NCBI GenBank assembly: GCA_016178705.1
Contig: JACOST010000018.1
Span: 1 to 64,000, forward strand
DNA from: Deltaproteobacteria bacterium
GTDB taxonomy: Bacteria; Desulfobacterota; Binatia; HRBIN30; JACQVA1
Length of the DNA stretch: 64,000 bases
Reading direction: 5' to 3'
In this document: in pieces, positions 182 through 4,489 of the stretch
How positions within the stretch are numbered: the stretch's first letter is position 1
Layout of the letters: every line of letters starts with the position of its first letter
Notes under the pieces: model-generated
What the model was told of the DNA's origin: nothing
Seen by the model: the letters and a program-made list of their open reading frames with translations, nothing else
Databases searched by the model: none
Position numbers and translations under genes: made by a program

Positions 182-1240
182 TCACGGCCGATAGAGGCCG
201 CGCCCGGTCACCAGCGGCAGATCGAGTGCCGAGAGTAATCCCGGCGCGGCTTGGCAGACGGCGGGGATGGCGTTGACGATGCGCGTCGCCGTGAGCACCA
301 CACCGCCGACGGCGTGGTCGCCGTGCTCGTCTTCGAATTCGAGTTCGCAGCTCATCTTCGGATTGCCGGTGATCATCACGCGGTAACTGCCGTTGCCGCG
401 CGGCCACTCCGGGCACAGCTCGTCATCGAGCCGGGTGACGTGCTCGACCACGATCGCCGCTTTCCCGGCGATCATGCCGCGCACCTCGAAGCGCAACGCC
501 GCCATGGTGCCAACCTCGACGGTGCGCCCGAGAATGCGGATCGGTCTTACCGCCGGGCGCTTCTCGTACCACGACGTAACGTCATCGAGCGTCACGCCGA
601 GTCCATCTGCAAGCAACCGAACCGTCCCGCCCCAGGCGAACTCAAGTGTGCCTGGCGTCAGCAGCAGCGGCGTGTCGTCGAGCGGTTTGCCGAATCCCAT
701 CGTGTCGAAGATCACCGTCGGCTGGTTGTAGGTCGCGTAGTTGATGATCTCGAGCACGCGCACTTCCTGCCAGGGTCCGCACAATCCCGTGAGCGTAAGC
801 GGCAGCAGATCGTTCGCGAAGCCCGGATCGATTCCCGATGTGAAGAACGACGTGCCGCCGATGCGGCAGGCCTCCGCTAATTTGTCGCGCACTTCTGCGA
901 TGAACGACTTCGGATGCACGAGCGGCACCATCGAACTCGACACGACGTTCTTGCCGGCGGCGAGGATGCGGCACATGTCCTCGATCGCTTCGAACGGGCG
1001 CAGATCGGCGGTCGCGGTGTAACAGACACAGTCGGCGTCGAGCGCGAGCAGCGCGTCGGCATCGGTGGTGGCGCGCACGCCCACCGATTTGCGGCCGCAC
1101 AATTCGCCGGCGTCTTTACCCGCCTTCGCGTCGCTGCTCACCCACACACCGGCGAGTTCCAGCTCCGGATGGTCGACGATGCAACGCAACGAGAACGCCC
1201 CCACGTTGCCGGTCCCCCACTGAATCACACGATACGCCAT
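182..1240 (-). CDS. NAD(P)-dependent dehydrogenase of the dihydrodipicolinate reductase-like family
   Basis: The 352-residue product begins MAYRVIQWGTGNVG, a Rossmann dinucleotide-binding loop in the DapB-type N-terminal domain, followed by a C-terminal domain like that of 2,4-diaminopentanoate dehydrogenase-related proteins. Such proteins are annotated as dihydrodipicolinate reductase-like, but they differ from true lysine-pathway DapB in length and C-terminal fold, and the substrate is unknown. The ATG at 1240 follows a GGAG-type site; an upstream in-frame extension to 1312 would give a basic low-complexity leader and is not favoured. The gene stands alone, with no partner on the same strand close by. 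Confidence 0.8.
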   Translation of the reverse strand: MAYRVIQWGTGNVGAFSLRCIVDHPELELAGVWVSSDAKAGKDAGELCGRKSVGVRATTDADALLALDADCVCYTATADLRPFEAIEDMCRILAAGKNVVSSSMVPLVHPKSFIAEVRDKLAEACRIGGTSFFTSGIDPGFANDLLPLTLTGLCGPWQEVRVLEIINYATYNQPTVIFDTMGFGKPLDDTPLLLTPGTLEFAWGGTVRLLADGLGVTLDDVTSWYEKRPAVRPIRILGRTVEVGTMAALRFEVRGMIAGKAAIVVEHVTRLDDELCPEWPRGNGSYRVMITGNPKMSCELEFEDEHGDHAVGGVVLTATRIVNAIPAVCQAAPGLLSALDLPLVTGRGLYRP

Positions 1241-1400: not shown

Positions 1401-1829
1401 CTAGCAAGGTTTCGGGGGCATTCCGCTCTGATAGGGCTCCGCATTCAGCCGAAGCTTGCAGTGCAAACATCGACGCGCGAATCCATTGTGATACCAACGC
1501 GTCGCGAAGAAGGGTTTCCCGCATCTAGGACAACGACTGAGGCTGACGATGGTGCCACCGACAGCGAACATCATAAACCACGAGACTACAGTGGTTGTGG
1601 AGATCCAGCCTGGTCCCGCGGTTGAGAAGACCACGTACCCCACGGGCATATAGGTCAGGAAAACGCCCCATGTAAATCGTTGCCTCTTCTTGATCCGCGC
1701 AAGCCCTGCACGAATTATATGGGGATCATCACTGCCGCGATCACTCGTCGAAAGGAACCGCCACCAAAGCAGATTCGCTAGAGCAGCGATCGCCACAAGT
1801 CCCACTAACCACAAATCAGGAATGTGCAT
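1401..1829 (-). CDS. Small membrane protein with C-terminal zinc ribbon
   Basis: The 142-residue product is of unknown function. It has a hydrophobic helix at about residues 5-24, two more between about 52 and 97, and a C-terminal knuckle pair CPRCGKPFF and CLHCKLRL (about residues 99-127) that should bind one zinc ion. The layout of membrane helices followed by a cytoplasmic zinc ribbon occurs in many small uncharacterised bacterial proteins. The ribosome binding site is weak. No neighbour clarifies its role. Confidence 0.6.
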   Translation of the reverse strand: MHIPDLWLVGLVAIAALANLLWWRFLSTSDRGSDDPHIIRAGLARIKKRQRFTWGVFLTYMPVGYVVFSTAGPGWISTTTVVSWFMMFAVGGTIVSLSRCPRCGKPFFATRWYHNGFARRCLHCKLRLNAEPYQSGMPPKPC

Positions 1830-1934
1830 CGCGCTGCTCGTAATCGCGGCCTACCACGGCGGCTTGAGCTAGGGCAAGGCTCACCTCCGCGGTAACAGCG
1901 GCCTCCCGCTCCAGATCACGCGCAGAACAGGCGC

Positions 1935-2086
1935 TCACAACCCCGTGGGCATTTCGAACGGCCAGTTCGAGGCGATGGGGCCGCCGTCGACTTCGAAGAT
2001 CTTACCGGTCACCCAGCTCGCGACCGGCGACGCCAGGTAGGGCACCGCGCAGGCGATGTCTTCCGGCGTGCCGAGGCGCGCCATCG
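1935..2086 (-). pseudogene. Remnant copy of the 3' end of the neighbouring SDR gene
   Basis: These 152 bases align without gaps to 3698-3849, the last 50 codons of the intact SDR gene, with 12 mismatches by my hand count (about 92 percent identity). The reading frame is kept to the same stop and encodes the SDR C-terminal segment around EVDGG. The cofactor-binding and catalytic parts are missing. The in-frame sequence upstream is unrelated and overlaps the SnoaL-like gene, so this is a fragment and not a working gene. The two copies flank the Rieske and SnoaL-like genes as direct repeats. Confidence 0.8.
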
Positions 2087-2103: not shown

Positions 2104-2541
2104 TCACACTGTGCCGCGAAATTTCGGCAGCTCAGGATGGCGCTGGCGAAATGATTCGTACAAATACGCATCGCTGTAGTCGCGCATCTCGCAGATGTGG
2201 TCGTCGCGGAACTTGATGACGACGCAGGTGCGTTGATCGATGGCGTCGTCCGGCGCGTGCTTCAACCAACTGCGTTCGCGGATCTCGACGATCACTCGCT
2301 CGTCCGCCTCGTACCAATCGCGCCACACTTCGTCGTAGCCCCAATCGGCCGCGCCGAGACCGAATTCGCGGTTGGCAAACGCCCGCAGCACCGCTTCGCG
2401 TCCACGCCACTCGCCCCCGATTGGCGGTGCACCCGCAACCCAATAGACGATGTCGTCGGTGAAAAGCCGACCGACTTCATCCATCCGCCCGGCGAACAAG
2501 GCACGCTCGTACGCCTTCGCAATGGTCATACGCTCGCTCAT
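2104..2541 (-). CDS. SnoaL-like / NTF2-fold protein
   Basis: The 145-residue product has the length and pattern of the NTF2-like SnoaL family: MTIAKAYERALFAGRMDEVG at the start, a conserved W/G-rich middle and a C-terminal strand with ICEMRDYSDAY. Members act as small cyclases, isomerases or hydrolases, or bind hydrophobic ligands. The ATG at 2541 overlaps the TGA of the upstream Rieske fusion gene in an ATGA junction, and GGAGGTG lies just before it, so the two are likely translated together and may act on the same substrate. The specific reaction cannot be read from the sequence. Confidence 0.75.
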   Translation of the reverse strand: MSERMTIAKAYERALFAGRMDEVGRLFTDDIVYWVAGAPPIGGEWRGREAVLRAFANREFGLGAADWGYDEVWRDWYEADERVIVEIRERSWLKHAPDDAIDQRTCVVIKFRDDHICEMRDYSDAYLYESFRQRHPELPKFRGTV

Positions 2542-3650
2542 GACGACACCTCCGGCGGCGGGGCGAGGCGATGCGCCTTGCGACCGCTGCGCTCCATTGG
2601 TTTGTCCAACTCGGCACGGTGGTGGTCGAGGACCCGCCAGTGGTCGAGCGCCCGGGTGACGAGTTGAGCGGACGCCTCGCGGAGCGCGACACTCGCACGC
2701 ACCTTCCGGACATTCTGCTCCATGTCCTCCGCGTCCCAGCCGCGCGAATGCGCGATGAAGGGAAACGGTGGCACCGCGAAGCCCAGTTCGCCCCAGAACG
2801 TCAGCAGTTGGCCGGCCACGCCCTGCACGTTGTCCTGCCCGCCGGTGATGATGAAGGCCGCGACCTTGTGTTTGATCAGCACGCGATTGTGGGTCGTGAT
2901 CTGATTCTGGACGCAGTTCAGGCGCTCGGCCATCTTGTAGTACAGCGACGACAGGTTGCCCCAGCGAATCGGCGTGGCAACCAGAAGGACGTCGGCCCAG
3001 TGGACTAAGCCTTCGTACACCGGTGTGAGCCGATCGTCGGGATCGCGCTCGGTGATCGCGCACGGCCACGTACACGCACGCGCCGCCTTCGAGTAATTGC
3101 CCTCGCAATGACGGAACTGTAGATCGCGCAGTTGGATGAGCTGCGTATCGGCGCCGAGCGCTTCCTTCGCGTGCGTGAGTGCGTGCTGCAGGAGCGCATC
3201 CGACGTCGAGAAGCGCGGATTGCCGGCATCCATCGCCGTCGTCGAAATCCCGAGCACGCGCGGCGGTGCCCCAGGCGCCTTCGAATGTTCCTCGAGCAAG
3301 TGGAGCGGCTTGTGTTTGACCAGCTTGCGAGGCATGCGCGGCGGCGTCGCCACGTAGACACCGTCGGGGCGTTCTTCGACCGCGAATGCCGGCACCTGCT
3401 CCTCATCGTAGCCGGCGGGTCCCTTTCCGGTAATGACGCTGTACTCCCATCCGTGCCACGGACACATGACGAACTCGTCGCGCAGACGTCCTTCGCACAG
3501 CGGACCACCTTTGTGATTGCAGGAACTACCGATGGCGCGAAACGCGTTCTGATAGAAGAAGAGCGCGATGCCATGGCGGTCCAGTTTGACCGCGCACGGC
3601 ACGCGCGCGAGCAACTCCGTTTTCGTTCCGAGCCGATGCCACGTCGTCAT
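2538..3650 (-). CDS. Rieske [2Fe-2S] domain fused to an NADPH-dependent FMN reductase domain
   Basis: The 370-residue protein has an N-terminal Rieske ferredoxin domain (about residues 4-105) with complete cluster ligands C44, H46, C63 and H66 (CNH and CPWH motifs). A linker leads to a flavodoxin-like FMN reductase domain (about 130-310) with the TPIRWGN flavin-loop motif. Within the flavin domain C182, C193 and C197 form a cysteine group resembling, but not matching, the CX2CX2C set of iron-sulfur flavoproteins. The fusion suggests a self-contained electron relay from NADPH through FMN to a Rieske centre. The start at 3650 follows GGAGGG; the upstream in-frame extension lacks a site. It is coupled to the SnoaL-like gene by a four-base overlap. 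No Rieske oxygenase catalytic subunit is nearby. Confidence 0.85.
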   Translation of the reverse strand: MTTWHRLGTKTELLARVPCAVKLDRHGIALFFYQNAFRAIGSSCNHKGGPLCEGRLRDEFVMCPWHGWEYSVITGKGPAGYDEEQVPAFAVEERPDGVYVATPPRMPRKLVKHKPLHLLEEHSKAPGAPPRVLGISTTAMDAGNPRFSTSDALLQHALTHAKEALGADTQLIQLRDLQFRHCEGNYSKAARACTWPCAITERDPDDRLTPVYEGLVHWADVLLVATPIRWGNLSSLYYKMAERLNCVQNQITTHNRVLIKHKVAAFIITGGQDNVQGVAGQLLTFWGELGFAVPPFPFIAHSRGWDAEDMEQNVRKVRASVALREASAQLVTRALDHWRVLDHHRAELDKPMERSGRKAHRLAPPPEVSS

Positions 3651-3697
3651 CCGCCCTCCGCTTCTGCCCATCGAACGAGCCCAACGGCTCGCGTGGC

Positions 3698-4489
3698 TCA
3701 CAGGCCCGTGGGCATCTTGAACGGCCAGTTCGAGGCGATGGTGCCGCCATCGACTTCGAAGATCTTGCCGGTCACCCAGCTCGCTGCCGGCGACGCGAGG
3801 TACAGCACCGCGCAGGCGATGTCTTCCGGCGTGCCGAGGCGCGCCATCGGCGTCATCGCCACCATTTGATCGCGCAGGCCTTCGGCGGCGGCGAGAAACG
3901 GCGACAGCGCATCGGTCTCGGTGGCGCCGACGGCGAGCGCGTTGACGCGGATCTTCGGCGCGAACTCATGCGCCAGCAGGCGCGTCATGTGCGACAGCGC
4001 CGCCTTCGCGGTGCCATACGCCACGAAGCCGATCTCGACCAGGTGCGACAAGCCGCTGGAGATATTGATCACCGACCCTTCGTGTTTCGCCAGATGCGGC
4101 GCGGCGAGCCGCGTGAGCAGGAACGAGGTGGTCACGTTGAAGTGAAACGCCGCTTCGAAGTCGCGCGTGCTGAGATCGAGTGCGGCGGTCGGCGCGGTGC
4201 CGCCGGCGTTGTTGACAACGATGTCGATGCGACCGAACTCTTCGACGGTGCGCGCCACGACGCGTTCGATCTGCCGCTCATCGTTGACGTCGCACGGTAC
4301 CGCCAGCGCGCGTACGCCGCGACTGCGAACTTCGTCCGCAACTCGTTCAAGTCGATCGGGCGTGCGCGCCGCGCAGACGACGTGCGCCCCGGCGTCGGCG
4401 AAAGCCAGCGCACTGCCGCGCCCAATGCCGGCGCTGGCGCCGGTGACGATGGCCACCTTGTTGTCGAGCCGAAAACGATCGAGGATCAT
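3698..4489 (-). CDS. SDR-family NAD(P)-dependent oxidoreductase
   Basis: This 263-residue classical short-chain dehydrogenase has TGASAGIG (about 17-24) for cofactor binding, the NNAG motif, and the catalytic Ser and YGTAK tetrad near residue 155. It should interconvert an alcohol and a ketone, or reduce a 3-oxoacyl-type substrate; the substrate is unknown. It lies 47 bases upstream of the Rieske fusion start on the same strand and probably shares its transcript. Its last 152 bases are duplicated at 1935-2086 on the far side of that gene pair, which marks a past local duplication. Confidence 0.9.
   Translation of the reverse strand: MILDRFRLDNKVAIVTGASAGIGRGSALAFADAGAHVVCAARTPDRLERVADEVRSRGVRALAVPCDVNDERQIERVVARTVEEFGRIDIVVNNAGGTAPTAALDLSTRDFEAAFHFNVTTSFLLTRLAAPHLAKHEGSVINISSGLSHLVEIGFVAYGTAKAALSHMTRLLAHEFAPKIRVNALAVGATETDALSPFLAAAEGLRDQMVAMTPMARLGTPEDIACAVLYLASPAASWVTGKIFEVDGGTIASNWPFKMPTGL

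Follow-up and report, generated by a model that had tools for sequence, protein, structure and literature searches.

A Rieske-FMN_red fusion family with a nearly invariant cysteine signature

We analyzed a 64,000-nucleotide stretch of DNA (the window) and observed that one of its genes encodes a Rieske [2Fe-2S] domain and a flavodoxin-like FMN_red domain within one chain. Judging from sequence comparisons, this fusion is a genuine and widespread redox flavoprotein family, apparently uncharacterized, with a nearly invariant cysteine signature. Since close copies are present in many distant bacteria and archaea, we consider it a real enzyme family and not an artefact. We give roughly even odds (about 0.5) to the reading that it is a soluble, self-contained oxidoreductase which would pass electrons from FMN to the Rieske cluster, and in which C182, C193 and C197 would serve as a third, Isf-like metal site or as redox thiols. 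The family is of interest as a conserved, apparently unnamed redox protein, whose hosts range from archaea of the Nitrosocosmicus type to probable green sulfur bacteria. Its cysteine signature predicts an extra metal or thiol site beside the FMN, in one chain with the Rieske cluster.

The fusion gene and conservation of its residues

The gene and its parts are located in the window as follows.

2538..3650 (stop included), minus strand: Rieske + FMN_red fusion gene, 370 aa, with ATG at 3650 (open reading frame; Pfam; 79 homologues of like length)
3414..3641, minus strand: Rieske [2Fe-2S] domain, residues 4-79, ligands C44/H46/C63/H66 in the pattern CxH...CxxH (PF00355, E 1.2e-12; ligands in 79/79)
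2745..3224, minus strand: FMN_red / flavodoxin-like domain, residues 143-302 (PF03358, E 2.7e-12; conserved segments; RosB fold match, Z 22.6)
3060..3107, minus strand: C182-x10-C193-x3-C197 motif, CEGNYSKAARACTWPC (79/79, 79/79 and 78/79; second set 34/34)

Both halves of the window protein scored above the curated Pfam cut-offs (48 bits against 20.3 for PF00355, 46.9 bits against 24 for PF03358), and up to E 0.1 its Pfam matches were Rieske-type and FMN_red/Flavodoxin_2 only. This bears out the initial annotation, which had placed the four Rieske ligands and a flavodoxin-like reductase in a single 370-residue chain. The three cysteines that it had pointed to in the flavin part were found at the positions claimed and are essentially invariant among homologues. 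The co-occurrence of the two Pfam domains in one chain extended to nearly all aligned members, window protein included: the Rieske domain was matched in 78/78 and FMN_red in 77/78. This alignment omits L065 (starts at a contig edge), L068 (stops early) and L075; the tree described below omits L068 and L075. No NCBIfam cut-off was exceeded by the window protein, and the NirD model TIGR02378 gave 40.4 bits against its cut-off of 74.65. Ten NCBIfam families were matched among the 78 members: every one models a Rieske ferredoxin, NirD or an oxygenase, and the flavin part is covered by none of them.

We confirmed 160 related stretches in one scan of genome contigs and checked the layout in the best 80. 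Therefore the fusion layout is not rare. The initial annotation had allowed for a common, already characterized enzyme; the first half of this description stands, while nothing in the open-access literature that we found supports the second. The conservation count covers 79 of the best 80 loci, L075 (interrupted, 117 aa) being left out. C44, H46, C63, H66, C182 and C193 were each kept in 79/79 homologues and C197 in 78/79, with Tyr in its place in L033; these counts lean towards conservation, because the loci were picked up by exact matches to short peptide patterns, and two of these patterns include some of the ligand and cysteine residues counted here. All seven residues were also kept in 34/34 proteins of a second, profile-found set, which partly overlaps the first (39 stretches, of which L126, L128, L134, L135 and L140 had no usable open reading frame).

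A frameshift or an assembly join of two genes, raised in the initial annotation as a possible source of the fusion, was ruled out: the gene is one open frame, the same layout is present in 79 homologues, and no full-length member without a Rieske domain was found in the phyla sampled. This last search covered five phyla (E thresholds 1e-20, 1e-25 and 1e-28) and indicates that the two halves stay together; its first pass scores only some candidates per genome, so that distant Rieske-less members could be missed. Another 10 genomes also yielded no full-length Rieske-less member. In one Gemmatimonadota genome, G255, we observed a piece of the flavin half only (profile 240-344, 155 bits, G255:C5:76332-76646, inside the contig), possibly a decayed or Rieske-less copy. 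Flavin-only or partial matches in G1045, G1348 and G864 were at contig ends.

The flavin half and its three cysteines

The family alignment shows three conserved segments in the flavin half, namely the R146-x-S-T-S phosphate loop, P227-I-R-W-G and G270-G-Q-D-N, which by comparison with the family we take to be an intact FMN site. The predicted structure of the window protein had a mean pLDDT of 89.6 and a pTM of 0.83. Because the linker at residues 111-120 had a pLDDT of 58 and residues 181-200, the less certain region around the three cysteines, a mean of 75-77, the placing of the Rieske and flavin domains relative to each other is unsure. The Rieske half (about residues 1-110) matched Rieske ferredoxins in fold (CarAc 1vck, BphA3 2e4p) and is of the soluble ferredoxin/NirD type.

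Among solved structures, RosB (5mji) was the best match of the flavin half both in the fold comparison (Foldseek E 3.0e-11; Z 22.6, rmsd 4.6, 221 aligned) and at the sequence level (E 1.3e-7 with the window protein, 5e-8 with the C-terminal profile, in an alignment that spans RosB residues 79-159 only). Such matches would fit an enzyme of the RosB kind, for which FMN or another flavin is the molecule to be chemically modified, but the identity is about 20% over the fold, and the RosB chain of 257 residues leaves no room for a Rieske domain. We regard this explanation as highly improbable.

The ArsH fold was matched at Z 19.0 (rmsd 3.4, 194 aligned), and ArsH, WrbA, AzoR and SsuE together at Z 16-19. 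These similarities speak for an ordinary NAD(P)H:quinone, azo or metal reductase of the WrbA/ArsH/AzoR kind, in which the Rieske domain would tune electron transfer and the cysteines would form a structural zinc site or a disulfide. Near-invariant cysteines and Rieske ligands over both archaea and bacteria exceed what structural zinc or tuning would need, although they are compatible with either, and we find an ordinary reductase unlikely.

An FMN-to-Rieske oxidoreductase with a further site at the cysteines agrees with their position. In a weak comparison of the C-terminal profile with the flavone reductase 7d38 (E 0.0012), C182 fell on the first cysteine of a CxxCxxC-type motif, which places the three cysteines where Isf-type proteins hold their cluster. 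The compact four-cysteine motif of Isf itself was not found, as the family has three cysteines in the order C-x10-C-x3-C. No fourth invariant cysteine was present in the flavin part among the 79 homologues (C246 was kept in 70/79). The usual ligand set of a [4Fe-4S] cluster is four, so three cysteines are one short.

Gene neighbors and the insertion site

We did not observe a conserved operon: none of the Pfam families listed (best 25 of 87) was matched by more than 2 of the 80 close same-strand neighbors. The neighbors were taken from longest-ORF gene calls, with L006-L015 excluded and one of 81 stretches (contig edge) omitted. As the neighbors are not conserved across the family, they indicate no partner, substrate or single acceptor.

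The neighborhoods bear on the other explanations. The chain could be a reductase component similar to NdmD, its FMN and Rieske centers feeding an oxygenase or other terminal enzyme encoded elsewhere; the soluble ferredoxin/NirD type of the Rieske half would suit this role, and NdmD is a characterized reductase that carries, besides its FMN and NADH domains, an extra Rieske cluster (PMC4408171). Against this, no oxygenase recurs near the fusion gene, the count above being no more than 2/80 for any family listed, and a fatty-acid-hydroxylase-like gene was found upstream in L085, a single case. Moreover, the flavin part of NdmD has another fold than the flavodoxin-like FMN_red half of our protein. 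A role as such a component seems doubtful to us. Flavin modification of the RosB type is not favored either, because among the families listed (best 25 of 87) no flavin-synthesis family recurs nearby; two flavin-reductase-like neighbors were found together in one locus, L034.

Redox-stress-like neighbors would suit an ordinary reductase, but they are isolated cases. They comprise a KatG-type peroxidase in L081, a globin-like protein in L074 and L077 (counted as one case because the proteins are near-identical), and, directly upstream in L071 (840-2663) and L072 (6090-7928), a protein that joins a ferric-reductase-like membrane part to a Rieske domain, another unusual fusion.

Several local arrangements were also seen. 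A tRNA pseudouridine synthase lies upstream in both L016 and L018, and the Gemmatimonadota loci have some transporter-like neighbors common among themselves. In L106-L121, from a family of genomes that bears chlorophyll synthase, the fusion gene often follows a LysE-type exporter and precedes D-Ala-D-Ala carboxypeptidase-like and Dabb-domain genes; the exporter is at position -1 in 11 loci and the carboxypeptidase-like gene is downstream in 15 (both named from 1-2 representatives).

In the window the neighboring features are as follows.

2104..2541 (stop 2104-2106), minus strand: SnoaL/NTF2-like gene, 145 aa (PF12680; ATGA-coupled to the fusion gene; NTF2 fold)
3698..4489, minus strand: intact SDR gene, a resident neighbor outside the cassette, upstream of the pair (an SDR gene also lies beside a DAPDH-like gene in L097)
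1933..2086 (compared with 3696-3849), minus strand: 154-nt repeat of the SDR 3' end at 92% identity, an apparent insertion scar (direct repeat just downstream of the SnoaL gene)
1401..1829, minus strand: 142-aa open reading frame, probably part of the insert (GC3 0.60 against 0.75-0.86 in neighbors; missing from the L097 site)
182-1240, minus strand: 2,4-diaminopentanoate-dehydrogenase (DAPDH)-like gene (below the NCBIfam cut-off)

The ATG of the SnoaL gene overlaps the stop codon of the fusion gene by 4 nt (ATGA). Its product matched SnoaL_2 (PF12680, E 1.2e-9, 39.1 bits against a cut-off of 27) and stayed below the SnoaL-like polyketide cyclase cut-off (PF07366, 17.2 bits against 28.4). A SnoaL homologue lies beside the fusion gene in 9/10 nearest relatives (L013 is without it), with the 4-nt overlap kept in 9/9; the remaining 70 loci of the best 80 showed no such homologue (tblastn 1e-5, within the flanks). 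In later Gemmatimonadota stretches, some of which hold the same genes as the first locus set, we detected it in 8/19, and the match began with ATGA in 7/8; in L141 it does not begin at a start codon. These 19 are the 20 genomes with a full-length copy minus G058, the genome of L008. The fold search returned generic NTF2 proteins (3fgy at Z 15.1, rmsd 2.1, 122 aligned, with many others within one or two Z) and no catalytic assignment. The initial annotation had taken the coupled protein as a sign that the pair acts on one small molecule, for which this distribution and this generic fold give no support. On sequence evidence the coupling is real and clade-limited and the SnoaL protein would be a local accessory; being confined to one clade, it cannot explain the core function of the family.

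The fusion and SnoaL pair was apparently acquired horizontally and inserted at this site. In the tree the window protein groups with 10 Gemmatimonadota proteins (support 100/99) and is 77% identical to the nearest. We found the fusion gene in 1/297 genomes of the window's own phylum, namely the window genome itself; neither the other 296 sampled genomes nor 57 relatives had a full copy. In a genome of the same family, G001 (L097), the SDR and DAPDH-like genes are direct neighbors; counted from the stop codon of the SDR gene they lie 39 nt apart, and a permease is found upstream of them. In the window the fusion gene, the SnoaL gene, the 154-nt SDR remnant and the 142-aa open reading frame are placed between these two genes. 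With such synteny on either flank, a binning error is unlikely. At the 12 sites that differ between the repeat copies, L097 agrees with the intact SDR gene at 8 and with the remnant at 4, so the end of the intact gene is probably the resident one. With GC3 values of 0.80 and 0.75, the fusion and SnoaL genes are scarcely set apart from their neighbors, which speaks against a foreign origin. The protein of the 142-aa frame has two CxxC pairs near its C terminus. The DAPDH-like protein (L096-L105) had two or more matches in 9/15 genomes searched.

Spread, proposed electron path and comparison with known systems

Homologues span at least 12 phyla including archaea, from Gemmatimonadota to Nitrososphaerota (tree row labels). 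None of the phyla with over 3 rows came out as a single clade in the best tree, which suggests gene transfer, though bins and paralogues can mimic such a pattern; for Bdellovibrionota a single origin is compatible with the well-supported branches. We counted full-length two-domain copies per phylum, with the seed genome included in each. Such copies were present in 20/200 genomes of Gemmatimonadota, the phylum of L008 (a further genome had a fragment, and another 14 had Rieske-only matches), 4/200 in the phylum of the Nitrosocosmicus locus L031, 36/296 in that of the Flavobacterium locus L067 (2 more with pieces at contig ends) and 3/288 in Verrucomicrobiota, the phylum of L021. In the phylum of L067, 36/38 matching genomes fall in one family, the chlorophyll-synthase-bearing one. 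The Nitrosocosmicus genome of L031 (G059) has two family copies, at 602 and 426 bits. No virus-borne relatives were found in viral_contigs. One plasmid record held at least 80% of the protein, that of Methylocystis sp. MJC1 (L093), where the copy adjoins a gene for NAD-dependent formate dehydrogenase, with IS6 and Tn3 transposases around it. One annotated copy is named only 'Rieske 2Fe-2S domain-containing protein'.

A clue to the role of oxygen comes from the chlorophyll-synthase-bearing family. A chlorophyll synthase match was obtained in 86/86 of its genomes (84/86 above the cut-off), and the fusion gene in 46/86 (43 full length, 3 as pieces at contig ends). The two were close to each other in 10/20 stretches, a chlorophyll-synthase-like gene (named from one representative) lying no more than 6 open reading frames from the fusion gene. 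Most of the genomes gave two or three chlorophyll synthase matches; from this and from its phylum, the family looks like the green sulfur bacteria (Chlorobiaceae), which are obligate anaerobes. The presence of the gene in so many likely anaerobic phototrophs argues against O2 as an obligatory co-substrate, while a role in O2 defense is compatible with it. It also counts against a reductase component for an oxygenase, and RosB chemistry, which needs O2, is an ill fit with such a family.

In the proposed oxidoreductase, a reduced donor would deliver two electrons to FMN in the flavodoxin-like half; the donor is most likely NAD(P)H, taken from the name of the Pfam family only. The FMN would then pass them one at a time to the chain's own Rieske [2Fe-2S] cluster, and the Rieske end would hand them to an external electron acceptor. 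C182, C193 and C197 may hold an Fe-S or other metal site near the flavin, Isf-like in position, or act as redox thiols. O2 would probably not be an obligatory co-substrate. The SnoaL/NTF2-like protein would be co-translated as a clade-specific accessory in the window and in one clade of Gemmatimonadota. We also suggest, more tentatively, that the protein is a three-center enzyme, in which FMN and the Rieske cluster are joined by a metal or Fe-S site whose ligand spacing (C-x10-C-x3-C) is new. Such an enzyme would work without O2 as co-substrate and would be an undescribed accessory electron outlet, passed on by gene transfer between archaea, green sulfur bacteria and members of many other phyla.

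No published description of the Rieske-FMN_red layout or family was found by title or abstract start in open-access PMC, among the matches listed, in agreement with the earlier remark that no characterized enzyme with exactly this layout was known; 'BRAMP domain' papers were also not found in the open-access literature. The known proteins resemble the family in parts. RosB (8-demethyl-8-aminoriboflavin-5'-phosphate synthase; 5mji, 5mld) has a flavodoxin-like fold in common with the C-terminal half, but it is without a Rieske domain and FMN is its substrate; the roseoflavin genes are treated in PMC11039241. To our knowledge, the nearest characterized precedent for a Rieske center fused to an FMN reductase is NdmD, the reductase of caffeine N-demethylation, whose single chain carries an FMN domain together with an extra Rieske cluster (PMC4408171). 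This precedent runs contrary to the initial statement that Rieske centers normally receive electrons from a separate reductase, since the Rieske cluster is here on the reductase itself. Unlike the fusion family, NdmD also has an NADH domain of its own and a further [2Fe-2S] cluster, neither of which was matched in the window protein (Pfam to E 0.1).

The Rieske ferredoxins of dioxygenases, such as CarAc and BphA3, resemble residues ~1-110 in fold and ligands, but they stand alone at about 105-115 residues and need a separate reductase. AIFM3-type proteins also carry an N-terminal Rieske domain on a flavoprotein, but theirs has the FAD-binding Pyr_redox fold and not FMN_red. In the Isf family and the Isf-like 7d38 the cysteines are in the loop after the second strand of the FMN_red fold, as in the fusion family. 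The Isf motif is a compact CX2CX2CX4-7C after strand 2, whereas the fusion family has the wider three-cysteine spacing and a Rieske domain fused in front. In summary, the fusion family is a variant built from known flavodoxin-like and Rieske proteins, and not a new kind of protein.
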